Source of the DNA: Lachnospiraceae bacterium P6A3
GTDB taxonomy: Bacteria > Bacillota > Clostridia > Lachnospirales > Lachnospiraceae
Assembly (NCBI GenBank): GCA_000702085.1
Contig: KL370861.1
Location: forward strand, 436,911-500,910
DNA: 64,000 bases
Direction of reading: 5' to 3'
In this document: one piece after another, positions 19,249 through 30,893 of the stretch
How positions within the stretch are numbered: the stretch's first letter is position 1
Layout: each line of letters opens with the position of its first letter
The notes under the pieces: generated by a model
Told to the model about the DNA's origin: nothing
Databases searched by the model: none
What the model saw: only the letters and a program-made list of their open reading frames with translations
Translations under genes and position numbers: made by a program

Positions 19249-19312
19249 TCCTTCAGGTTTGGTTTTCTTATGTGGGGATGATAAAATACTTAGAAAAAAG
19301 GAAATTATCCCC

Positions 19313-20215
19313 ATGAAAATGTCGTCATTTATGCCGCTTGCCCGCTTCGGCGTCCGAACGGTTTTATTTCATAAAAAAGATCCCATACTCGGAACAGTAA
19401 TAGTGACCGATAAGTGCAACTTAAAATGCAAGCACTGCTCGGTAAACAATATAACTGCCGTCATCCATCCTTATGACCGGATAAAAGGAGAGATGCAGCA
19501 GCTTTTTGACATGGGTATCCGTATTCTTTTTTTCTGCGGAGGAGAGACATTTCTGTGGGCGGACAGCGGTAAGACCATAAGGGATCTTGTGGTGGAAGCA
19601 AAGGAAATGGGATTCCTTATAGTTAATGTGGTTACAAACGGAACTCACCCCATCGATCTTCCGGAAGCGGACCTTATACTTTTGAGCCTTGACGGAGACA
19701 GGGAGCGTCATAACGAAGTCCGCGGTGATACCTACGATACCATCATGGAAAACATAGCCAATGCCACTTCCGACAATATCTGTTTTTACATGGCGGTTAA
19801 TCAGATCAATAAAAATGCCATAGAGCATGTATGTCGTACTGCAAGAGATACGAAGAATGTAAGAGCGGTTTCTTTTAACTTCCATACGCCTTACCCCGAT
19901 ACGAGGCAGCTGGCGCTCAGCAAAGAAGAAAAGGCCGAGTGCTGTAAGACCATAGAAAAGATGATGGATGAGGGATGCCCCGTATTTAACTTAAAGAGTG
20001 CATTTCCTTACATTGTTAACAATAGTTTTCCCACTCCCTGTCATCAGTGCGTTGTTATCGAAAACGGTAAGATCTCGACCTGCGGAAGATGCATCGAGGT
20101 CCCCGGGCTTTGCGATGAATGCGGATATTTCTTTGTTGCGGAATACACACTTTTGTTCAGCGGAAATGTGAAGATCATATTTGAAATGCTTCGCACTTAT
20201 CTGAAATACGTTTGA
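19313..20215 (+). CDS. Radical SAM protein with C-terminal Cys-rich region
   Basis: Predicted radical SAM enzyme, 300 residues. The 4Fe-4S/SAM motif CNLKCKHC supplies Cys35, Cys39 and Cys42; the Gly-rich FFCGGETFLW is the SAM-binding GGE motif. Near the C-terminus six Cys occur in C-x2-C pairs (CHQC, CGRC, CDEC), resembling a short SPASM/twitch region that holds another cluster. That architecture is common in peptide- and cofactor-modifying enzymes, but no precursor peptide is seen nearby. The start at 19313 was chosen by family length. The next radical SAM gene begins 1 base after its stop. Confidence 0.87.
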   Translation: MKMSSFMPLARFGVRTVLFHKKDPILGTVIVTDKCNLKCKHCSVNNITAVIHPYDRIKGEMQQLFDMGIRILFFCGGETFLWADSGKTIRDLVVEAKEMGFLIVNVVTNGTHPIDLPEADLILLSLDGDRERHNEVRGDTYDTIMENIANATSDNICFYMAVNQINKNAIEHVCRTARDTKNVRAVSFNFHTPYPDTRQLALSKEEKAECCKTIEKMMDEGCPVFNLKSAFPYIVNNSFPTPCHQCVVIENGKISTCGRCIEVPGLCDECGYFFVAEYTLLFSGNVKIIFEMLRTYLKYV

Positions 20216-20216
20216 T

Positions 20217-21470
20217 ATGAGTTTTAAAACCACACTTACAAGAATGTGGCTTACAAGGTCATTTAAGCCCTTTCTTTTTACAAATGAATATGACGAGGAA
20301 TTGAAATTCGAAGATCTTGATAATCTCGGTCTGTATGTACATATCCCCTTTTGCGAGAGGATATGTAATTTCTGTCCCTACTGCAAAGTGAAATTTGAAG
20401 AGGAGCTCTGTAACAGGTACATAGATGCTCTTATCAAAGAGATTCATTCGGTAGGGAACCGTTACCCGGGTAAAAAGACAACCACAAGCCTGTATTTCGG
20501 AGGCGGTACTCCTGCACTTGCAGTGGGCCGTCTCGGTGAGATCATAAGCGCACTTGAAGAGCACTTTATCATAACCGAAGGAATAGGCGTTGAGCTACAT
20601 CCTTCAAACGTCACTCCGGACATGCTACGCATACTTAAAGCTGCGGGTGTGACCAAGATCAGTATCGGGATTCAGTCTTTCGGAGAAAGATTCAGCAGGA
20701 TCCTGGGCAGAAACAATACAGATCCCGAAGTGCTGAAAAAGGCCCTTGATGAGGTTTCCTTTGAAACCGTATCCATGGATTTCATATTCGCACTTCCCGG
20801 CCAGACATTTGAGGACATAAAGTCTGATATAGATACCGCTTTTAATTGCGGTGCCAATCATGTGGCAATCTATCCCTTTATCGATTTTACCTTTACATCC
20901 AGTAAGGTTAAGGCCATGCCTAAGAGGGAAAAGAGAGCTCTTCTTGATAAGATCACCGCATATTGTACCGGAAAGGGGTATCCCAGAAATTCCATCTGGA
21001 CGTTTTCGAGTAAGGAAGAGGCAAGGTATTCTTCCATGACAAGGGATAATTTCCTGGGATTCGGATGCTCTGCCACAACGCTTTTAAGAGACAGATTTAA
21101 GATAAATACTTTCTCGGTGGAAGAGTATTGCAAACGCGTAGAAAGCGGCAGGCTTCCCACTTCCCTTACCATTAAATTCACTACCAGGCAGAGAATGGTC
21201 TATTACCTGTTTTGGACCGCTTATTCCACCAAAGTAGATCCCAAGGCATTTGAGGAATTTTTCGGAGTGCCTCTTAAGAAAAAGTACGGTTTGGAATTTA
21301 AACTTGCCGAGCTGGCAGGTTTTCTGACCCGGAAGGACGGTATATATACAATGACCCCCAAAGGGGCGTTCTACTACCATTATTACGAGAATTTCTATAC
21401 CCTCGCATACATAGACAAAATGTGGGGAATCATGAGAAAAGAAGCCTTTCCGGAAAAGATTATACTTTAA
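20217..21470 (+). CDS. HemN/HemW-like radical SAM protein
   Basis: Radical SAM protein of the coproporphyrinogen III oxidase-like superfamily, 417 residues. Cysteines 46, 50, 53 and 56 lie in CERICNFCPYC; the CX3CX2C core is standard and the fourth Cys is extra. The motifs YFGGGTPAL, ISIGIQSFGERFSRILGR, MDFIFALPGQT and the C-terminal HemN-type winged region (FFGVPLKKKYG) are present. True HemN, HemW haem chaperone or a HutW-like methylase are all possible; no haem gene is near. It starts one base after the first radical SAM stop, so the two are likely made together and may act in one pathway. Confidence 0.85.
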   Translation: MSFKTTLTRMWLTRSFKPFLFTNEYDEELKFEDLDNLGLYVHIPFCERICNFCPYCKVKFEEELCNRYIDALIKEIHSVGNRYPGKKTTTSLYFGGGTPALAVGRLGEIISALEEHFIITEGIGVELHPSNVTPDMLRILKAAGVTKISIGIQSFGERFSRILGRNNTDPEVLKKALDEVSFETVSMDFIFALPGQTFEDIKSDIDTAFNCGANHVAIYPFIDFTFTSSKVKAMPKREKRALLDKITAYCTGKGYPRNSIWTFSSKEEARYSSMTRDNFLGFGCSATTLLRDRFKINTFSVEEYCKRVESGRLPTSLTIKFTTRQRMVYYLFWTAYSTKVDPKAFEEFFGVPLKKKYGLEFKLAELAGFLTRKDGIYTMTPKGAFYYHYYENFYTLAYIDKMWGIMRKEAFPEKIIL

Positions 21471-21491: not shown

Positions 21492-21520
21492 GTGCCAACC
21501 GGAAGATTTTCGTGTATAAT
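21492..21520 (+). promoter_or_regulatory. Candidate promoter of the GGDEF-STAS-NRPS operon
   Basis: GTGCCA, 17 bases, perfect TATAAT. It lies 31 bases before the GGDEF start. The -10 is strong, the -35 matches 4 of 6. Confidence 0.5.
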
Positions 21521-21551
21521 TATAACGGTTATTGTAACCAAGGGGGGACAT

Positions 21552-22772
21552 ATGAATTACGAGAAAATCATTAATGATTTTGTAAAGGAAGGTGCCGGGG
21601 AATTTATTATCACCGACAGGCAGGGCACTGTGCTGTTCAGAAACAGGGTAGAGGGTTTTACCGATGAACAGTGGATGGCCTGGGCTGCGTTCAATATCGA
21701 TACGCAGACCATAGACCATGAAGAGGATTGGGAAATATCCGACAGAAGCGGAGGCAATTACTACAATGCCAAATCCCTTCCCGTATCCTGCGACGGAGAA
21801 GAGGTTATCCTGCACCACGTTTACAATACCAGTCAGTACGCAACTCTTTTGCGTGACGTTTCAGGCTATCTTAAGGATTGGAGAGATCTGAGTGCATTCC
21901 AGACTGCGATGCTGGAGAAGCTCTCGGGTAACTATGAATCCTGTCTGCCCGTTGTTCTCAAATATTTCAAAGTATCAAGCGCGGTTATGTATATCGGTCG
22001 TGACAGGAAGATGGAGAGACATCTTCTGAGTAAGGGCACGAAGACCATCGAATCCACCCGTATCGACAGGGAGGATGTTTTTGATACGCCCAAAGGCGAA
22101 TTCAGAAAGCTTCCCGGTATGGGCGACGAAGCATATCTTTGCTATATCTGTGACAGCGCGATACACGGAACGGATTACGCGTTATATCTGTATTCCGAAG
22201 AACTTGAGAGCGATGATGATTTCAGCATGCACTACAACGTTATCAAGCTCTTTATTGAAAACGGACTCCTGAGAGAACAGATCACATACGAAAGTGAGCA
22301 CGATAAACTCACATCCCTTTACAACAAAGGAAAATACATGTCCATGCTTTCCGATTTTATGCCCAAGAAAAATCGTGTGGCAATTTACAACATGGACGTT
22401 AATTACCTCAAGAGAACAAATGATACCCTCGGACACGAAGCAGGAGACGCCCTCCTTGTCAAAGCGGGAAAGAGTCTCCTTGCTGTCGAAAGAGACAATG
22501 TCAGAGGCTTCAGAATGGGCGGAGACGAATTTATGCTCCTTGGCTGGGACCTTGAGGAAGATGAAGCAATCGCTGTCAAGAAAGAGTGGGAAGAAGCACT
22601 TAAGAAGCTTAATGAGAATGACAGCGGTGTAGAATGTATCATTGCATGCGGACTCGCTTACGGTAAGGGAGACTTCGATCTGAAGGAACTCCTTAAGAAA
22701 GCGGATGATCTGATGTATGAAAACAAAGTAGCTATTAAATTGTCCCGGGGCGAAGATCCTAATTCCCGGTAA
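21552..22772 (+). CDS. Diguanylate cyclase (GGDEF), soluble
   Basis: Predicted cyclic-di-GMP synthase of 406 residues with no membrane segment. The C-terminal GGDEF domain (about 255-400) has the conserved DxxxLKxxND entry (NMDVNYLKRTNDTLGHEAGD) and an intact GGDEF at 323-327. The product-inhibition I-site is missing: Arg is there, but the Asp position is Val (RDNV). Activity should therefore not be limited by this type of feedback. The first 250 residues are an unrecognised, PAS-like sensory region (GEFIITDRQGTVLFRNRVEGF). AAGGGGGG is the ribosome site. It leads the operon with STAS, NRPS, phosphatases and kinase downstream (24 bases to STAS). Confidence 0.9.
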   Translation: MNYEKIINDFVKEGAGEFIITDRQGTVLFRNRVEGFTDEQWMAWAAFNIDTQTIDHEEDWEISDRSGGNYYNAKSLPVSCDGEEVILHHVYNTSQYATLLRDVSGYLKDWRDLSAFQTAMLEKLSGNYESCLPVVLKYFKVSSAVMYIGRDRKMERHLLSKGTKTIESTRIDREDVFDTPKGEFRKLPGMGDEAYLCYICDSAIHGTDYALYLYSEELESDDDFSMHYNVIKLFIENGLLREQITYESEHDKLTSLYNKGKYMSMLSDFMPKKNRVAIYNMDVNYLKRTNDTLGHEAGDALLVKAGKSLLAVERDNVRGFRMGGDEFMLLGWDLEEDEAIAVKKEWEEALKKLNENDSGVECIIACGLAYGKGDFDLKELLKKADDLMYENKVAIKLSRGEDPNSR

Positions 22773-22795
22773 CAAAAAGAACGGAGGAGAATAAC

Positions 22796-23095
22796 ATGAC
22801 CATTAACAAGAACCAGGACGGAAGCAAACTTGAAATAGCACTCGAGGGAAGACTCGATACTATGACCGCACCTGCACTCGAGGAGGAAGTAAAGTCTTCC
22901 ATCGAGGGAATCAAGGAACTTGTATTTGATCTTAAGGATCTTGTATACGTTTCATCCGCAGGACTTCGTGTTCTTCTGTCTGCCCAGAAAACAATGAACA
23001 AGCAGGGCAGCATGACCATTAAGAATGCAAATGAAGAAGTTATGGAGATTTTTGAGGTAACCGGATTTATAGACATTCTTAACATCGAAGAATAA
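22796..23095 (+). CDS. STAS-domain anti-sigma factor antagonist (SpoIIAA/RsbV-like)
   Basis: Single STAS domain of 99 residues. The phosphorylation-site segment VYVSSAGLRVL (about 51-60) corresponds to the site where kinases of the SpoIIAB/RsbW type phosphorylate SpoIIAA/RsbV; I cannot decide by eye which Ser is used. GGAGGAGAA precedes the ATG. In the established family scheme the unphosphorylated protein binds the kinase and frees its partner, and a SpoIIE-type phosphatase resets it. All three partner types occur in this operon (kinase 28825, phosphatases 27350 and 29229), which strongly supports this role. Confidence 0.93.
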   Translation: MTINKNQDGSKLEIALEGRLDTMTAPALEEEVKSSIEGIKELVFDLKDLVYVSSAGLRVLLSAQKTMNKQGSMTIKNANEEVMEIFEVTGFIDILNIEE

Positions 23096-23111
23096 GGCTT
23101 GGTTTAATCTT

Positions 23112-26100
23112 ATGGGTGGAGATTTAATACGGCTTAACCCTTCCAGGGAAGCCATTGAGATGAATGATCTGGCTTTTCCGGATTCGCCTATCAATACGGT
23201 CGGATTCAGGCTGGATCTTCCCGAAACGGATGCATCCGTTCTTAAAGATGCATTCGAGAGGGTAGCTGACAAAACCGTTTTGCTTCATCTTGAACTGATG
23301 AAGAAAGACGGTGTGCGTTATCTGCACGATACCGGAAAACCGGTATCGGGTGCAGTGCTCGGCAGTATAACTGCCGACGATGCGGATGAAGAATGGGAAA
23401 AAGACACACAGAGTTCTCTGCCGGAGGCCGGATGGAAAGCAAAAGTTTGGTCTGTAAAATCCGGCGGAAGTTCTCTTTTTTTCCTGGTACATCATCTGCT
23501 TCTGGACGGCTACACCTGCATGCAGCTGGCCCAGCTTGTGCTTGATGAAGTAAACGGTGTACAGACCGATTTATCCGATATCGATTACACTCGTCTTCCC
23601 GAAGATGATGAGAATTCGGACGGTTTTTCACCGGAAGAACAGAAAAATTTTTGGATGCATTATTTTGACGGAGTTCAAAATGAGGCAACCGTAATGCGCG
23701 GAGATCCTTCGGGATGTGAAAGACTCCGCCTTACGTATACTGTGCCCTCAGAGCTTCTGGATAAGATAAATGCCTTTGAAGAAGAAAAGGGACTTAAAGA
23801 CTCCGCAGTGTTTGGCGCCGCTCTTTCCTTGTGGCTTGCAAGGAGCGGGCAGACTCAGGACGGAGTTTTTCTTATGCCCAGACTTAACCGTGAAAATCCC
23901 CGCCAGCTTTCCGCAATGGATTGTATGACAATGGTGGTTCCCGTCAGAAACACCATCAGAGAAGAGGACAGCTTTACGGAAGTCTGCAGACAGTCCATGC
24001 GTCAGGCAAGAGAGGCGTCCCGTCATAAACATTACGGTATCAAGAACATAACCGGCGATCTTCATGCTTCCGGAATCTTAAGCGGCATGATCTCCGAATA
24101 TGTACTTAACTGCATACATGCGGGAAGACTCAGAAGCAATGTTCCTTTCAGCATATATGAAAACATGAGCGGCGGTATGAGTAATCATCTTACCATCGCC
24201 GTTCAGCGTATCGCGGGCGGCATTAATATGATCTATGACGCGCGTGTCGGAATATATGACGAAGAAAAGACGAAAGATTTCAACGATGCGCTTCTGTATA
24301 TTATCGAGCAGGGCGTAAGCGGAGAGATAACCGTCGGAAATATCGATATTGTAGCGGATGCCGAGAAGGAAAAGCTGCTGGGTGTCAAAGGAAAAGAGAT
24401 ACCTGTAAGCGATACCGATTCCATTGCCGATCTTTTCAGAAAGTCGGTTGAAAAGTTCACGGATCGCCCGGCACTGTATGCGGGTGATGAATCCTATACA
24501 TATACGGAACTGGACAAAATATCAAGCCGTATAGCCAATGCACTTCTGGCAAAAGGCGTAAAGCAGGGGGAGCCTGTTCTTTATAAACTGAAAAGAGATC
24601 ACAGACTGATCCCCGCACTTCTCGGAATCATTAAGTCAGGTGCGGCCTTTATTCCTCTCGATCCCAATTATCCGGAAAAGAGGATAAGCTATATCACCAA
24701 GGATTCCGGTGCTTCGAGGATGATAGTGAGCACGGATACCGTCGGAAGCGATGAGGGTATAGAGTATCTGGATATCGATGAACTTATCTCTTATGAAGAC
24801 GACAAGGATCCCGCTCTTTCCATACCGCAGGACAGCCTTGCATATTCGATCTATACCTCGGGAACAACGGGTAATCCCAAAGGTGTTCTTCTGACACACA
24901 AAGGTATCGAAAATATTACCGCACCCGATAACAATCCTTTCAACCGTGAAGTCGTAAAAAACGGAAAAGGTATTGTTGCCATCGGATCGGTATGTTTTGA
25001 TATTTCACTTTTTGAATTTTTTGTTCCGCTTTTCAACGGATGCTTCATCGAACTTGCACCGGAAGATGCCATGGCGGATCCCAGGGCACTTGCCGTGCTT
25101 ATTCTGAAGCATAACGCAAATCTGATTCACTGTACTCCTTCAAGACTTGCAGCGTATCTGAGAGAAGAATCCTTCAGCGATGCACTTAAGAGTGTGGATG
25201 CGGTTTTATCTGCGGGAGAGGTTCTTCCGGGAAGTCTTATCAAAGAGCTCAGGGATGTATACGATGTTCACATTTATAACGGATACGGACCGACGGAGAC
25301 AACGATAGGTGCCACCATCACCGAAGAAGGAGATGAGCTCTCCATAGGAAAGCCCATAGCAAATACCGGAATTCTTATCCTGGATGATAAAGGAAGACTG
25401 ATACCCTTCGGTGCTCTCGGAGAGATATGCATATACGGAAACGGTGTCGGATTGGGTTATCACAATCTCAGTGAAGAGACCGGGAAGCGTTTCAAGGAAT
25501 ATTTCGGAAAAAGAGTTTACCGCACGGGTGATCTGGGAAGATTCTTTGATGACGGCAGGATTGAGTATCACGGCAGAAACGATTTTCAGGTTAAGCTCAG
25601 AGGACTCAGGATCGAGCTGGCAGAGATTGAAAACTGCATGATGTCATATCAGGGTATCAACGCCGCATGTACGCAGGTCAGAAATATGTACGGCAGAGAT
25701 ACGCTTATCGGGTTTTATACCAAGGCTCCCGGAAGCGAGATTGACGACGGTGCATTAAGGGAATATATGAGCGGTCGTCTTGCAAGCTATATGGTTCCCG
25801 ATATCTTAAAGCAGATAGATGAAATGCCCACCACCCCCGGAGGAAAGCTTGACCTTAAAAAACTTCAGCAGATTCCGGTTGAATATGTATCCGCATACAG
25901 GGCTCCCGAGAATGAGTATCAGAGAATTATCTGTGAAGTATTTGCCAAGGTACTGGGAATCGAGAGAGTCAGCATCGGAGACAGCTTCTTCGAGATAGGA
26001 GGAGATTCTCTTCATACCGCGGAACTCATTCATAATCTCACGGAGATGATACCGGGACTTAAGCTTGAATTCGGTGATATTTTCAAATATCCCGTTCCCG

Positions 26101-27353
26101 AAACACTTGCCCAGTTTATATACAGGCAGTTTGCTGAATTATCCGATTCGGAAGAAAGCGTAATAGATAAGCTTGATTATACGGGCATAGATCCCTTGCT
26201 TTCCAAAAACGTTCTTCCTTCTAAGGGAACGGATAAAAAGAGAAGACACGGCAATATTCTTCTCACAGGTGCAACGGGTTTCCTGGGACTTCACGTTCTC
26301 ATGGAGCTTCTGAAAGAACCGGAGAGCTTCGACAATATTTATTGTCTCATAAGACCCACAAAGAGACTTGACCCGCCCAAGCGTCTTAAGAACCTTCTGT
26401 TTTATTTTGAAAACACCGAATGCGAAGAGATGCTGGGAACCAGAATATTTGCCGTATCGGGAAATATCGAGAACAAGAAGATATTTGATGAAGAGATCCC
26501 GGTAAAGTTCGATACGGTAATCAACTGTGCAGCGGATGTCGCACATTTCGCATATGATGACAAGCTGGATAAAGTCAATACCGAGGGAGTACGGAATCTC
26601 CTGAAAATATGCGAGAAGAATGAAGCACGGTTCGTACAGGTCTCAACCATATCGGTATCGGGATTCTACAAGAGCGATTCCAAACCGCTCAGCTTTGACG
26701 AAAGGAATCTCTACGTAGGTCAGACCATCAACAATCAGTACATACTGTCCAAGTACATGGCCGAATATGAATGTCTTAAGGCAATGGCTGACGGTAAGGT
26801 TGACGTAAAGATCATGCGAGTCGGAAATCTTCAGGGAAGACTTTCCGACGGAGAGTTCCAGGTCAATAAGAATAAAAATGCATTTACAAGAAGGCTTGTG
26901 TCTTATGTAAATATCCGGAAGGTTCCCGTAAGCGTTTATGACAGCCTTGTGAATTTCTCACCCGTTGATGAAGTTGCACATATGATCTGTAACCTGTCGA
27001 GACTGCCGATGGACTATACGGTTTTCCATGTTTCACCGGATAAAGAGATTCCCATGAAGCTGTTATTTGATTCTCTGAAGAAGCTGGGATATGAGATTGC
27101 CGTTGTTCCGGATGAAGAGTTCGAAAGCTATGTCCTGGAACTGAAAAACGATAAGGAAGGCCGCGTGATGCTGGAAGGACTGCTTGCAGACAGCCCGGAT
27201 ACGGATTACAGATTCACGAACGTATCACAGAGCTTCACCGACGGTATTATAAAAGATGCCGGTCTTATCTGGGGGGATATCACAGAGGGCTATCTTTCCA
27301 AGTATCTGCAAGTACTCGATGAATTCGGTATATTTGAGGGAGGGAATGTATGA
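23112..27353 (+). CDS. One-module NRPS: condensation-adenylation-PCP-thioester reductase
   Basis: Predicted 1413-residue single-module peptide synthetase. The condensation domain (about 1-430) has active-site HHLLLDG at His127-Gly133 and RHKHYG later. The adenylation domain (about 435-925) has YTSGTTGNPKG at 581-591, GYGPTETT, YRTGDL at 803-808 and the closing GGKLD Lys. The carrier domain has IGGDSLH with phosphopantetheine Ser966. The terminal reductase (about 1045-1413) has TGATGFLG at 1052-1059 and YxxxK (Tyr1210, Lys1214). Such a line should acylate one amino acid and release it as aldehyde or alcohol. A hand-read specificity code is D-I-F-S-L-A-G-I-G-K, with no assignment. An alternative start at 23160 has a better ribosome site. 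The stop overlaps the next gene (ATGA). Confidence 0.93.
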   Translation: MGGDLIRLNPSREAIEMNDLAFPDSPINTVGFRLDLPETDASVLKDAFERVADKTVLLHLELMKKDGVRYLHDTGKPVSGAVLGSITADDADEEWEKDTQSSLPEAGWKAKVWSVKSGGSSLFFLVHHLLLDGYTCMQLAQLVLDEVNGVQTDLSDIDYTRLPEDDENSDGFSPEEQKNFWMHYFDGVQNEATVMRGDPSGCERLRLTYTVPSELLDKINAFEEEKGLKDSAVFGAALSLWLARSGQTQDGVFLMPRLNRENPRQLSAMDCMTMVVPVRNTIREEDSFTEVCRQSMRQAREASRHKHYGIKNITGDLHASGILSGMISEYVLNCIHAGRLRSNVPFSIYENMSGGMSNHLTIAVQRIAGGINMIYDARVGIYDEEKTKDFNDALLYIIEQGVSGEITVGNIDIVADAEKEKLLGVKGKEIPVSDTDSIADLFRKSVEKFTDRPALYAGDESYTYTELDKISSRIANALLAKGVKQGEPVLYKLKRDHRLIPALLGIIKSGAAFIPLDPNYPEKRISYITKDSGASRMIVSTDTVGSDEGIEYLDIDELISYEDDKDPALSIPQDSLAYSIYTSGTTGNPKGVLLTHKGIENITAPDNNPFNREVVKNGKGIVAIGSVCFDISLFEFFVPLFNGCFIELAPEDAMADPRALAVLILKHNANLIHCTPSRLAAYLREESFSDALKSVDAVLSAGEVLPGSLIKELRDVYDVHIYNGYGPTETTIGATITEEGDELSIGKPIANTGILILDDKGRLIPFGALGEICIYGNGVGLGYHNLSEETGKRFKEYFGKRVYRTGDLGRFFDDGRIEYHGRNDFQVKLRGLRIELAEIENCMMSYQGINAACTQVRNMYGRDTLIGFYTKAPGSEIDDGALREYMSGRLASYMVPDILKQIDEMPTTPGGKLDLKKLQQIPVEYVSAYRAPENEYQRIICEVFAKVLGIERVSIGDSFFEIGGDSLHTAELIHNLTEMIPGLKLEFGDIFKYPVPETLAQFIYRQFAELSDSEESVIDKLDYTGIDPLLSKNVLPSKGTDKKRRHGNILLTGATGFLGLHVLMELLKEPESFDNIYCLIRPTKRLDPPKRLKNLLFYFENTECEEMLGTRIFAVSGNIENKKIFDEEIPVKFDTVINCAADVAHFAYDDKLDKVNTEGVRNLLKICEKNEARFVQVSTISVSGFYKSDSKPLSFDERNLYVGQTINNQYILSKYMAEYECLKAMADGKVDVKIMRVGNLQGRLSDGEFQVNKNKNAFTRRLVSYVNIRKVPVSVYDSLVNFSPVDEVAHMICNLSRLPMDYTVFHVSPDKEIPMKLLFDSLKKLGYEIAVVPDEEFESYVLELKNDKEGRVMLEGLLADSPDTDYRFTNVSQSFTDGIIKDAGLIWGDITEGYLSKYLQVLDEFGIFEGGNV

Positions 27354-28822
27354 GTTCTTCAGTAATTTTGCTATGGAGTGTTTCAGCCGTAATATCTTTT
27401 GTGTTTTCAATGATAATGGCAGATGCCACACTGAAGCCCAAGTATCCTAAAGGCAAGATGGTATTCTGGTGGCTTGTGGGTCTCGTATCGGATTTCGTGC
27501 TCGTGTTCGTAAGCTACACCATCAATCCTTTTGTTGATGTAATGAATGCGATCGGACAGTGTATCATCCTGGTTATCTGTCTTATCCTGCTTTACTCCGA
27601 TTCACTTGAGAATAAAGCGTTTATCGGTATGACAATGTCACTTGCCGCAAGCGTAGCGATATTCCTTTTCTGCGGCACCACCGATCAGATCGTCGGAGCA
27701 AGACTCAATCTTTTTGACGAAACCTTCGGACCTTATACCATAAACAATATTCTGTTCTTCTCTGGAATCAAGATTGTCGTTCTTGCGATCATCGCCGTTT
27801 TGTACGTGCTGTTCCTCAGGAAGGCGTTTAAAGACATGCTTCGCCTTGCGGAAGGACAGATGAAGAAGTATATTGTTGCACCCGCATTCTCGGTAGTCGG
27901 TTTCTATATCATCAACATAGTTTCAAACTCTACCGGAATCTATCCCACAAATGCATATTTCGTTCCTCTTTATCTGACCGTATGTACCATATTTGTGGTT
28001 GAGTATATTCAGATATTCTCATCAGTAAGATGGACTGCCGAAGCCAAGAAGGCAGAGCAGGAGAAGGAACGTATCGGTGCGGAGCTTAATGTCGCTACAC
28101 AGATTCAGGCAGACATGCTTCCCAGAATCTTCCCCGCATTCCCCGAGAGAAACGAGTTCGACCTTTACGCTCTCATGAATCCTGCCAAGGAAGTCGGAGG
28201 AGATTTTTATGACTTCTTCCTGATCGATGACGATCATATCGGTCTTGTAATGGCGGATGTCTCCGGAAAAGGAGTTCCCGCCGCACTGTTCATGGTCATT
28301 GCAAAGACCCTTATCAAAAACAGAGCTCAGATGGGCGGATCACCTTCGGAAGTTCTGGCATATGCAAACGATCAGCTCGGAGAAGGAAATGAAGCGGAGC
28401 TTTTCGTTACCGTATGGTTTGCTATAATAGAGATATCAACCGGAAAAGGCGTTGCGGCGAATGCAGGACATGAGCATCCCGCAATCTGCAGGAAAAACGG
28501 AAAGTTCGAGCTGGTTAAATATCGTCATTCACCTGCTGTTGCGACCATTTCCGGAATTGATTTCAAAGAGCATGAGTTTAAGCTTGAGCCCGGTGACAGC
28601 CTCTATGTATATACCGACGGCGTTACCGAAGCTACCAGAAGTGATAACGTTCTTTTCGGAATCGACAGAATGCTGGATGCACTTAACAAGAATCCCGGTG
28701 CGTCACCCGAAGAGATGCTTAAGACCGTACGCTCTGATATTGATGAATTTGTCGGAAGCGCTCCTCAGTTCGATGATATAACCATGTTGGGATTCAAATA
28801 CATGGGGGCGGGAAAGGAGTGA
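27350..28822 (+). CDS. Membrane SpoIIE-type PP2C phosphatase (first)
   Basis: Predicted membrane-bound serine phosphatase, 490 residues. About the first 225 residues are hydrophobic with roughly seven membrane helices and form a sensor of unrecognised type. A short coiled linker (KKAEQEKERIGAELNVATQIQADMLP) leads to the PP2C/SpoIIE domain (about 255-488). Metal-binding motifs are intact: GGDFYDFF, MADVSGKGVPAALFM, AGHEHP, YTDGVTEAT and FDDITML. The domain is almost identical to that of the second phosphatase at 29229, so both probably act on the same STAS protein while sensing different inputs. It overlaps NRPS by 4 bases and the next gene follows at once. Confidence 0.93.
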   Translation: MSSSVILLWSVSAVISFVFSMIMADATLKPKYPKGKMVFWWLVGLVSDFVLVFVSYTINPFVDVMNAIGQCIILVICLILLYSDSLENKAFIGMTMSLAASVAIFLFCGTTDQIVGARLNLFDETFGPYTINNILFFSGIKIVVLAIIAVLYVLFLRKAFKDMLRLAEGQMKKYIVAPAFSVVGFYIINIVSNSTGIYPTNAYFVPLYLTVCTIFVVEYIQIFSSVRWTAEAKKAEQEKERIGAELNVATQIQADMLPRIFPAFPERNEFDLYALMNPAKEVGGDFYDFFLIDDDHIGLVMADVSGKGVPAALFMVIAKTLIKNRAQMGGSPSEVLAYANDQLGEGNEAELFVTVWFAIIEISTGKGVAANAGHEHPAICRKNGKFELVKYRHSPAVATISGIDFKEHEFKLEPGDSLYVYTDGVTEATRSDNVLFGIDRMLDALNKNPGASPEEMLKTVRSDIDEFVGSAPQFDDITMLGFKYMGAGKE

Positions 28823-28824
28823 CA

Positions 28825-29232
28825 ATGAGAGAACTTAACATTGAAGCTTTGATAGAAAATCTGGATCAGGTGCTTGCGTTTGTCGATGAAGAGATCGACA
28901 AGCTTGAGTGCTCTGTCAAGATACGCACCCAGATTGATATTGCGGTTGAGGAACTCTTCGTAAATATCGCTCATTATGCGTACAACCCCGAGACGGGACC
29001 CGCAACCGTGAGAGTGGAAGTCGAGAAGGATCCTCCGGCTATATCCATTACATTTATCGATCACGGTATACCTTACGATCCCCTTGCTAAGGCGGATCCC
29101 GATATTACGCTTTCCGCGGATGAAAGAGAGATCGGAGGCCTCGGAATATTCATGGTCAAGAAGAGCATGGACAGCATAGACTATGAGTATAAAGACGGCC
29201 AGAATATTTTGCATATCAGAAAGTTAATATGA
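28825..29232 (+). CDS. Anti-sigma-type serine kinase (RsbW/SpoIIAB-like HATPase)
   Basis: GHKL-fold serine kinase of about 135 residues. The N box EELFVNIAHYAY supplies the catalytic Glu and Mg-binding Asn, G1 is DHGIPYDP and G2 is IGGLGIFMVKKSMD. RsbW-family proteins hold a sigma factor and phosphorylate their STAS antagonist; here the STAS gene is in the same operon. ATG 28825 follows GGAAAGGAGTG; a GTG at 28819 inside that site is less likely. No sigma factor gene is visible in the 64 kb, so the second binding partner is unknown. The stop overlaps the start of the next phosphatase (ATGA). Confidence 0.92.
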   Translation: MRELNIEALIENLDQVLAFVDEEIDKLECSVKIRTQIDIAVEELFVNIAHYAYNPETGPATVRVEVEKDPPAISITFIDHGIPYDPLAKADPDITLSADEREIGGLGIFMVKKSMDSIDYEYKDGQNILHIRKLI

Positions 29233-30893
29233 AGAACAAAAGATTTAATGTAACAGGACTGGCCGGCAGGCTGATTCTGGGACTGGCGCTTTTCGTCGCA
29301 CTTGTCACCGTCGGTTCTATCATCGTCGGTGTAAATACATATAAAGCATCCACATACAGACATTATAATGATGTCGCTTATCAGGTTGCGCGTTCCGTCG
29401 AACTTCTTCTTGATAAGGATAAACTCAAGGAGTGGAGCAACCTGGCATATGAGTTCAATACCACCGGAGAAGGCGGCACTGAGATAGCTTCCGCAAAAGC
29501 TTCGGATGAGTACAAGAACTGTTTTGATGCATTTACGAATCTTCGCCGCGGAATGGATGTAACCGATATATTCATCGGTGTTGTAAACGGCGACGAGATC
29601 TATTACATTCTGGATACCGATCCCGCCGAAGAAAGAAGATTCGGACTCGGCGACAAAAGCGGCATTGAAGAATATCTCAGTGAGGGACTCCGTGCCATCT
29701 GGGATATGGGATTGCCTTACTACAACGGATATTTCATTCATGAGACATTGTACGGATCCAGCATAACCGCTGTATATCCCGTGGTTTATGAGGGAAAGAC
29801 CATCGCATTTATTGCTGTTGAATCCCCCATGAGAACACTTCAGTCGGATGTGAGCAGTTACATTTTTACCGTTCTGATAATCGTATGTATCATATCGGTA
29901 ATCTTATTTGTACTGACCGCATTTATTCTGGTTAATTCACTTATTAAGCCCATCAAGACCATATCTCACGAAGCGGCATATTTTGTCGAGAATGAAAACG
30001 AGATATCGGAAAATCTCAAGAAGATCAAAAATCATGATGAGATACAGGTTCTTGCGGAGAGCGTTCTTCGCATGGAGATCGGTATCAATGAATACATCTC
30101 CAATCTGACCAAGGTCACTGCGGAGAAGGAACGTATCGGAGCGGAACTTAATGTCGCGACCAAGATCCAGGCCGATATGCTTCCCGGTGAATTTCCGGCA
30201 TTCCCCGAAAGACAGGATTTTGATCTGTATGCTTCAATGAATCCCGCAAGAGAAGTGGGCGGAGATTTCTATGATTTCTTCCTGATCGACGATGATCATA
30301 TCGGTCTTGTTATTGCAGATGTATCCGGCAAGGGAGTTCCCGCAGCTCTTTTCATGGTCATTGCAAAGACTCTTATCAAAAACAGGGCACTTATGGGAGG
30401 ATCACCTTCCGAAGTACTTGCATATGCCAATGAACAGCTGGTAGAGGGAAACGAGGCGGAGCTTTTCGTTACCGTTTGGTTTGCGATAATAGAGCTTTCC
30501 ACCGGAAAAGGAGTTGTCGCAAATGCAGGACATGAACATCCCGCGCTTCGCAGAAAAGACGGAAAATTCGAACTGATCAAATACCGTCATTCACCTGCGG
30601 TTGCAACCATGCCCGGAATGAATTTCAAAGAGCATGAGTTTAAACTTGAACCCGGTGACAGTCTCTATGTATATACGGACGGCGTTACTGAAGCTACCAG
30701 AAGCGATAATGAACTGTTCGGAACGGACAGAATGCTGGAATCGCTCAATAAGGATCCGGATGCGGATCCTAAGACGATGCTTGAAAATGTTCGTGCGGAT
30801 ATCGACGGATTTGTCGGCGACGCACCGCAGTTTGATGATATTACGATGCTCGGATTTAAATATATGGGATCAGAAAAATCTCCAATTGCTTAA
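29229..30893 (+). CDS. Membrane SpoIIE-type PP2C phosphatase with extracellular sensor (second)
   Basis: Predicted 554-residue receptor phosphatase. A first membrane helix (about 10-35) and a second (about 215-240) enclose an external domain of roughly 180 residues. HAMP-like linker SLIKPIKTISHEAAYFVEN follows, then the same PP2C catalytic domain as the 27350 gene (GGDFYDFFLIDDDHIGLVIADVSG, YTDGVTEATR, FDDITML). So it reads an external signal, unlike the first phosphatase with its polytopic sensor. It ends the operon: its stop lies 24 bases inside the convergent transporter gene on the - strand, with no visible terminator. Confidence 0.93.
   Translation: MKNKRFNVTGLAGRLILGLALFVALVTVGSIIVGVNTYKASTYRHYNDVAYQVARSVELLLDKDKLKEWSNLAYEFNTTGEGGTEIASAKASDEYKNCFDAFTNLRRGMDVTDIFIGVVNGDEIYYILDTDPAEERRFGLGDKSGIEEYLSEGLRAIWDMGLPYYNGYFIHETLYGSSITAVYPVVYEGKTIAFIAVESPMRTLQSDVSSYIFTVLIIVCIISVILFVLTAFILVNSLIKPIKTISHEAAYFVENENEISENLKKIKNHDEIQVLAESVLRMEIGINEYISNLTKVTAEKERIGAELNVATKIQADMLPGEFPAFPERQDFDLYASMNPAREVGGDFYDFFLIDDDHIGLVIADVSGKGVPAALFMVIAKTLIKNRALMGGSPSEVLAYANEQLVEGNEAELFVTVWFAIIELSTGKGVVANAGHEHPALRRKDGKFELIKYRHSPAVATMPGMNFKEHEFKLEPGDSLYVYTDGVTEATRSDNELFGTDRMLESLNKDPDADPKTMLENVRADIDGFVGDAPQFDDITMLGFKYMGSEKSPIA

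Follow-up and report, generated by a model that had tools for sequence, protein, structure and literature searches.

In the archaeon Methanobrevibacter ruminantium M1, a nonribosomal peptide synthetase (NRPS) is flanked by two serine phosphatases, an anti-sigma factor antagonist and a MatE exporter (mru0066-0071), a further cluster (mru0512-0516) holds a phosphopantetheinyl transferase (PPTase), an acyltransferase, a phosphatase, an antagonist and a kinase, and sensing, regulation and export were proposed for the methanogen NRPS (PMC2812497, 2010). The Figure S8 legend of that paper assigns mru0068 a thioester reductase domain, its text a thioesterase. Control of a diguanylate cyclase (DGC) by a STAS or STAS-like protein is established elsewhere, namely in SiaC-SiaD and BgrV-BgrR (PMC8457831) and in HsbA-HsbD (PMC5085249), and a cyclic di-GMP (c-di-GMP) enzyme of Streptomyces described in 2026 is reportedly also an anti-sigma antagonist (PMC13232838). 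Here we analyse a six-gene operon in a 64,000-nucleotide stretch of the gut-type Lachnospiraceae bacterium P6A3 (contig KL370861.1, positions 436,911 to 500,910; the whole stretch is called the window), which encodes a GGDEF-type DGC, a STAS protein, a reductase-ended NRPS, a SpoIIE-type phosphatase (SpoIIE1), an RsbW-like kinase and a second SpoIIE-type phosphatase (SpoIIE2). The operon is real, conserved and not ordinary, and is an exchangeable-cassette form of the kind of association sketched in 2010.

Like the M. ruminantium clusters, the window operon joins an NRPS to serine phosphatases and an anti-sigma antagonist; unlike it, those clusters belong to an archaeon and their NRPS has two modules, and the accessible text of PMC2812497 mentions no DGC, cassette exchange or sensor pairing. 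A sequence-only reading of the window knew of no described system with this layout. The broad association is not new, because NRPS with phosphatases, antagonist and MatE were described in that paper; what survives of the claim is the GGDEF gene. SiaABCD of Pseudomonas aeruginosa likewise combines a SpoIIE-type phosphatase, a kinase, a STAS-like partner and a DGC, but its SiaC is a DUF1987 protein rather than a PF01740 STAS, and its four-gene set has one phosphatase and no biosynthetic gene (PMC8457831). By score our operon is not SiaABCD proper: SiaA is the NCBIfam top match of both SpoIIE proteins at 58-60 bits against a cut-off of 700, and the DGC reaches 69 bits against 290 for the SiaD equivalog. 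In HsbA-HsbD of P. aeruginosa (PMC5085249) and BgrV-BgrR of Sinorhizobium meliloti (PMC8457831) a STAS protein controls a DGC, a contact that in our operon is predicted. The phosphatase, STAS and kinase families and their catalytic residues are shared with RsbU-RsbV-RsbW and SpoIIE-SpoIIAA-SpoIIAB, whereas the operon here has no sigma gene, two phosphatases, a DGC and an NRPS. AusA and other reductase-ended NRPS have the peptidyl carrier (PCP)-reductase end in common with the window enzyme, which is one module with an N-terminal condensation (C) domain; AusA has two modules. HsbA-HsbD and BgrV-BgrR use other sensors and are not known to include an NRPS. A literature search over titles and abstract openings, reaching few subscription papers, returned no other NRPS-DGC partner switch, no cassette exchange in one and no MATE-RsbW fusion; as far as these searches go, the DGC, the cassette exchange, the sensor pairing, the exporter fusion and the clade survey reported below are new.

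The evidence for exchange comes from sister species. An RsbW search of 31 genomes of the genus gave matches in 16, ten of which (the window included) were at 88-99% identity. The surrounding site is readable in nine of these ten, the contig of G313 ending after RsbW and part of a SpoIIE gene, and it counts as the same site on the basis of common upstream neighbours in all nine and a common downstream transporter where viewed (window, G314 and G116). GGDEF and STAS genes are adjacent in all nine loci, behind one conserved promoter element. Two loci, the window and G314, have NRPS and SpoIIE1 between STAS and RsbW, and SpoIIE2 after RsbW. Five others (G116, G323, G307, G303 and G310) have ATP-grasp, MATE-type and GH3 genes after STAS, followed by a SpoIIE2-type phosphatase gene and RsbW (PF14397, PF01554 and PF03321 by Pfam in G116, the other four being assigned by similarity to G116). 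The site is empty in G311 and G312, with a STAS-RsbW junction that lacks any insert and a SpoIIE2 gene, judged from its opening bases, that starts directly after RsbW. What is left there is a four-gene shell, DGC-STAS-RsbW-SpoIIE2, in which a DGC is encoded together with a phosphatase, a kinase and a STAS-like partner, and in seven of the nine loci the shell lacks the NRPS. G323, despite its GH3 cassette, has a DGC that shares 94-95% identity with the DGCs of the window and G314; for the DGC of G312, whose site is empty, the figure is 90%. Because the nine loci hold an NRPS (two), ATP-grasp/MATE/GH3 genes (five) or nothing (two), NRPS and SpoIIE1 look like an exchangeable cassette in a c-di-GMP partner switch, and the empty or differently filled sites suggest an exchangeable chemical-signalling module. 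We infer the direction of cassette exchange.

Open reading frames and Pfam matches agree with the gene order, spacing and motifs given by the sequence-only reading for the six co-directional genes at 21552-30893 (Table 1): consecutive genes are separated by 23, 16, -4, -4 and -4 bases, with three 4-base overlaps, and the catalytic motifs checked across the six proteins are all intact. The entire operon is repeated in G314 at 84-97% protein identity. The window, four relatives and, from a second group, four further loci all carry the element TCGTGTATAATTA letter for letter upstream of the GGDEF gene; a GGGGGG stretch precedes the gene start at 21552. Since the whole operon recurs in G314 and TCGTGTATAATTA is identical in all nine shell loci, the arrangement goes beyond chance.

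Table 1. Positions of the operon features, counted from the first base of the window.
Feature	Position	Strand	Evidence
Extended -10 promoter element TCGTGTATAATTA	21510..21522	+	Identical in 9/9 shell loci; consensus match
Diguanylate cyclase (GGDEF, 406 aa), first gene of the shell	21552..22772	+	Pfam E 9e-22
STAS-only protein, anti-sigma-antagonist type, presumed phospho-acceptor Ser54	22796..23095	+	Pfam E 6e-16
Single-module NRPS, C-A-PCP-reductase, 1413 aa	23112..27353	+	Pfam, motifs
Condensation domain, HHLLLDG	23433..24380	+	Pfam aa 108-423
Adenylation domain, pocket D-I-F-H-L-A-G-I-G-K	24435..25463	+	AMP-binding, aa 442-784
Peptidyl carrier domain, Ser966 in GGDSL	25926..26120	+	PP-binding E 2e-9, aa 939-1003
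Thioester reductase domain	26262..27338	+	NAD_binding_4 E 6e-35; GATGFLG, YxxxK
SpoIIE1: seven hydrophobic segments and PP2C/SpoIIE phosphatase; accompanies the NRPS in orthologues	27350..28822	+	Pfam E 7e-46
RsbW-like kinase (HATPase_c_2)	28819..29232	+	Pfam E 8e-22
SpoIIE2: hydrophobic segment, ~170 aa, hydrophobic segment(s), linker, PP2C/SpoIIE phosphatase; shell-native	29229..30893	+	Pfam E 2e-47

Of the 31 genomes of the genus, two encode the full NRPS, the window's own and G314 (89% identity), the latter carrying the six-gene operon and a radical-SAM gene pair. A 5.2-kb contig (JAIKXN010000185, RUI456) contains the end of a STAS gene, an NRPS at 75% identity and the first 267 residues of SpoIIE1. 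Outside the genus, G258 (NRPS 47%) encodes STAS, NRPS and a SpoIIE fused to a kinase domain, followed by a MATE gene, and G114 (NRPS 45%) encodes STAS-NRPS-SpoIIE-RsbW, with a stop codon near the NRPS end. STAS and a SpoIIE1-type many-helix phosphatase therefore accompany the NRPS in all five orthologues, the window and four relatives (45-89% identity, at least three genera). Ten adenylation-pocket residues are identical in all five and differ in the single-module NRPS of G079, G143 and G251. A crude hydropathy scan counts six hydrophobic segments in the RUI456 piece and seven in the sensor of each of the window, G314, G258 and G114.

SpoIIE1 itself is a mosaic. Its sensor is 94% identical to that of G314, 72% to RUI456, 42% to G258 and 37% to G114, against 24-31%, with another topology, for the SpoIIE proteins of the five GH3 loci. 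In tblastn, SpoIIE1 aligned full length, sensor included, to G258 and G114, and to G056 over the phosphatase only, from residue 238. For the phosphatase domain, identity is 89-91% with the GH3 loci and 85% with SpoIIE2; at the DNA level the two window domains (28061-28819 and 30123-30890) are 81% identical, and the two sensors have 22% aligned identity. The SpoIIE2 sensor is 66-79% identical to G314 SpoIIE2 and to the GH3-group sensors. Because sensor and phosphatase identities point to different relatives, we read SpoIIE1 as an NRPS-lineage sensor joined to a host-type phosphatase domain. This mosaic and the co-inheritance of sensor and NRPS, like the operon's anatomy and its empty and filled sites, are read from sequence.

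The signalling proteins carry the sequence features of a partner switch. RMGGDEF is intact in the DGCs of all nine shell loci. The STAS protein scores above the cut-off of NCBIfam TIGR00377, retains its SSAG motif and has a Ser54, predicted to be phosphorylatable, that is unchanged in 18 of 18 aligned sequences. In the kinase, which is of RsbW/SpoIIAB type with N-box and G-boxes, E45, N49, D81, G107 and G109 are unchanged in 11 of 11 aligned sequences and EELFVN, IDHG and GGLGI are intact. GGDFYD, ADVSGKG, YTDGV and FDDITM are present in SpoIIE1 and SpoIIE2, as expected of SpoIIE/RsbU PP2C phosphatases with metal Asp residues. SiaA is the top Protein Data Bank (PDB) fold match of both phosphatase structure models; the best 50 matches per model include phosphatases and one WalK-YYCH model (rank 47, SpoIIE2), and none that names the sensors. 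The membrane-sensed phosphorylation switch proposed in the sequence-only reading is borne out at the sequence level.

We favour, at a probability of roughly 0.45, a c-di-GMP partner switch that carries an exchangeable small-molecule cassette. The core shell comprises DGC, STAS, RsbW kinase and SpoIIE2, with the NRPS and SpoIIE1 as a two-gene cassette at the STAS-RsbW junction. RsbW would phosphorylate Ser54 of STAS; SpoIIE1 and SpoIIE2, sensing different membrane signals, would both dephosphorylate it; and how active the adjacent DGC is would depend on whether STAS is phosphorylated, following the precedent of SiaABCD, HsbA-HsbD and BgrV-BgrR. On the simplest reading, both phosphatases would act on the single STAS, where two membrane signals would converge. 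The SpoIIE1 sensor would most likely sense a signal tied to the NRPS product, as suggested by its co-inheritance with the NRPS. A DGC-controlling switch is favoured because DGC and STAS are adjacent in nine of nine loci, the empty shell has four components and precedents are published. Two further points count in its favour: genome searches gave no RsbW-type kinase, STAS-only protein or full SpoIIE domain outside the operon (below), and the SiaA that both phosphatases match best serves a DGC switch. We infer that the DGC is the output, and likewise the product chemistry, the SpoIIE1 ligand and control of, or by, the product. If this is right, the operon is a natural plug-in socket through which gut- and rumen-type Clostridia couple small-molecule synthesis to c-di-GMP; the product should alter STAS phosphorylation via SpoIIE1, and a comparable action is expected of the GH3 cassette in sister species.

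Several observations weigh against this proposal. The window and G314 retain SpoIIE2 beside SpoIIE1, so there is no strict pairing of sensor with payload. The GGDEF gene is not adjacent to the NRPS in G258 or G114, so STAS-NRPS-SpoIIE-RsbW exists without a DGC. The phosphatase models are weak (mean pLDDT 66.9 and 59.1), sigma factors encoded elsewhere in the genome are possible switch targets, most reductase-ended NRPS loci in a wider survey lack nearby switch genes (both below), and co-location in one operon need not mean that NRPS and shell signal to each other. An extension of the proposal, which we consider unlikely, is a synthase-receptor module of a new type: an acyl-amino aldehyde or alcohol made by the NRPS would be exported and sensed by the co-inherited SpoIIE1, which, through a phosphatase domain matched to the host switch, would act on the host STAS and feed cell-to-cell signalling into c-di-GMP, with sister species using other synthases at the same socket.

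Classic sigma control, in which RsbW holds an unlinked sigma factor until dephosphorylated STAS frees it to transcribe the operon or other genes, is a somewhat doubtful alternative. STAS and RsbW belong to anti-sigma families, Sigma70_r2 has seven matches in the genome (G000; 2.98 Mb, nine contigs), one of them under the cut-off, and the accessible text of PMC2812497 proposes environment sensing with regulation of NRPS expression, close to this explanation. None of the seven lies in the operon, however, and no sigma gene was found among its six genes and the four neighbours scanned, although unlinked targets are possible; by contrast, a STAS-kinase-sigma triple in G114 does have an adjacent sigma gene. 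The kinase is also far under the NCBIfam cut-offs for RsbW and SpoIIAB, and the conserved promoter resembles an ordinary extended -10 site. Elsewhere in the genome, PF13581 matched one 512-aa frame besides the operon's RsbW-type kinase, PF01740 one 583-aa frame besides the operon STAS, and PF07228 partially a 266-aa frame besides the two full SpoIIE domains of the operon. As these searches gave no other full set, the operon is the only partner switch of the RsbW/STAS-only/full-SpoIIE kind found. A sporulation origin is unsupported for this genome, in which no sporulation gene set was seen, the one RsbW-type kinase, two full SpoIIE proteins and one STAS-only protein all being here (PF13466, STAS_2, was not searched).

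Alternatively, the NRPS could be a passenger, inserted in a signalling operon, merely co-transcribed and functionally unlinked. Recombination at a conserved site would explain a shell that lacks the NRPS in two sister species and holds another cassette in five. To place this in a wider context, we surveyed reductase-ended NRPS with a carrier-reductase profile (A1), which at E 1e-50 had matches in 42 of the 397 genomes of the family and at 1e-60 in 40 of the 391 of the class, both lower bounds because at most four candidates were scored per genome. The resulting 88 loci comprise all 47 non-own family loci listed, G314 and 40 of the 41 listed non-own class loci (G605 left out). Within 5 kb, 25 have a kinase domain, 13 STAS and 12 SpoIIE; 27 have any of these and 61 none, which fits a passenger. 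The sequence-only reading had named the NRPS without signalling genes as a refuting case: this was absent among the five orthologues, within contig reach, and present among the distant loci. The control was 39 picked NRPS regions with no reductase detected, stand-alone C-domain frames and at least G135:C74 (908 aa) and G080:C23 (749 aa) being left out; L135/L136 and L145/L146 are overlapping pairs. These regions had one kinase, one doubtful STAS and one SpoIIE, three with any. The kinase is thus enriched at reductase-ended loci (25/88 vs 1/39; Fisher p 6e-4), whereas STAS (13/88 vs 1/39) and SpoIIE (12/88 vs 1/39) do not differ at 0.05 (p 0.06 each).

The distribution of switch genes over the reductase tree is harder to square with a passenger. 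The tree has 88 rows, 87 loci and the window, L091 (which has a fusion) having been dropped as short. In one supported group (100/99) of 38 rows, partner-switch genes mark 26, a long MATE alone marks 7 and 5 have neither; among the 50 rows outside, L087 is the one partner-switch row, so 26 of 27 linked rows fall inside. Fisher's test on this association gives 4e-12, which overstates independence because the rows are related; on the tree, 8 changes account for the partner-switch label, where shuffled labels need 23.3 on average. One supported subgroup unites the window, G314, G258 and G114. Together with the presence of STAS and SpoIIE beside the NRPS in all five orthologues, also outside the genus, and with a second cassette type that likewise brings biosynthetic enzymes to the same site, this makes a functionally unlinked NRPS quite improbable. 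As a side observation, L034, a 3.2-kb contig of the same-genus genome G320, carries a piece of a reductase-ended NRPS at 35% identity, and that genome has no RsbW match at E 1e-8.

Least likely of all is export gating, in which STAS or kinase would open or close a product exporter. In its favour, relatives fuse an RsbW-like domain to a MATE transporter: local profiles place such a fusion no more than 5 kb from the NRPS at 20 of 88 loci, often in the group of 38, an N-box is present in 15 of 20 aligned fusions, and Pfam puts HATPase_c_2 above cut-off in five of seven fusion loci (L049, L050, L052, L053 and L061). Against it, Pfam scores the domain under cut-off in L048 and finds none in L055 or in the G116 protein, the window operon has no MATE gene, its genome gave no fusion-search match (8 of 12 candidates scored), neither the N-box Asn nor the DNG Asp is present in the three aligned fusions of GH3 type, and 16 of 30 fusion loci (below) show no NRPS or GH3 piece nearby.

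The fusions are of interest in themselves, since in relatives they hint that partner switching and export are directly tied. Such MATE transporters, whose C-terminal domain is RsbW-like, form a widespread family that is often multi-copy: of 397 family genomes, 68 match the fusion profile, with at most eight matches per genome, and among the matches listed, 59 of these genomes have one that starts no later than profile position 20, at the MATE end, while 9 show what resemble plain HATPase proteins. All 30 loci viewed (L189-L218) have the fusion by local profiles, with an NRPS-domain piece in the 1.5-kb flanks of 13, GH3 in 1 and neither in 16, and we reject the fusion as an exclusive NRPS hallmark on this last count. 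The domain of the G116 protein was detected by the local profile (L197). GH3-type fused domains may be binding rather than kinase domains. For the seven long MATE tails without a HATPase match, profile comparison lent no support to their being degenerate kinases (probability 0.5%). In L170 (11386-17808, G135), a fusion adjoins an NRPS with no reductase detected.

The NRPS has C, adenylation (A), PCP and reductase domains in one chain with intact motifs. The Condensation match (E 9e-20) begins at profile position 119, the AMP-binding match has E 2e-74, the adenylation core motifs are intact, and Ser966 is, as the sequence-only reading had it, the carrier serine of GGDSL. The ten pocket positions were placed by the GrsA numbering, and their residues agree with no adenylation code known to us. 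PCP-reductase has 6vtj and AusA 4f6l as best PDB sequence matches; AusA is also the NCBIfam top match, far under its cut-off, and TIGR01746 scores 150.7 bits, under its 213 cut-off. PF00668 matched one other frame in the genome, of 443 aa. Because no upstream module is known, the N-terminal C domain probably takes its acyl donor from outside the NRPS, and the product is probably an N-acylated amino aldehyde or alcohol. An anti-phage defence role is rejected, as PADLOC matched none of the six operon proteins at E 0.001.

Some neighbouring and related loci deserve mention. Two radical-SAM genes (19301-21470) end 81 bases 5' of the operon; the pair accompanies the shell in the window, G314, G323, G311 and G312, and none was seen 5' of the DGC in G116, G303, G307 and G310. 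A convergent CitMHS-type transporter gene overlaps the SpoIIE2 end by 24 bases (30870-30893). In the same genus, L182, L184 and L185 (G301, G306 and G321) have STAS and an ATPase near contractile-injection-type genes (GPW_gp25 and Phage_base_V in L182; Baseplate_J and Tail_P2_I in L184); the ATPase of L184 is ABC_tran, RsbW is present in L182 and L185, and this further partner switch likewise has no sigma gene in view. In G327, L188 (75-4344) encodes RsbW, a 734-aa Acyl_transf_3 protein and SpoIIE in series, resembling mru0512-0516.

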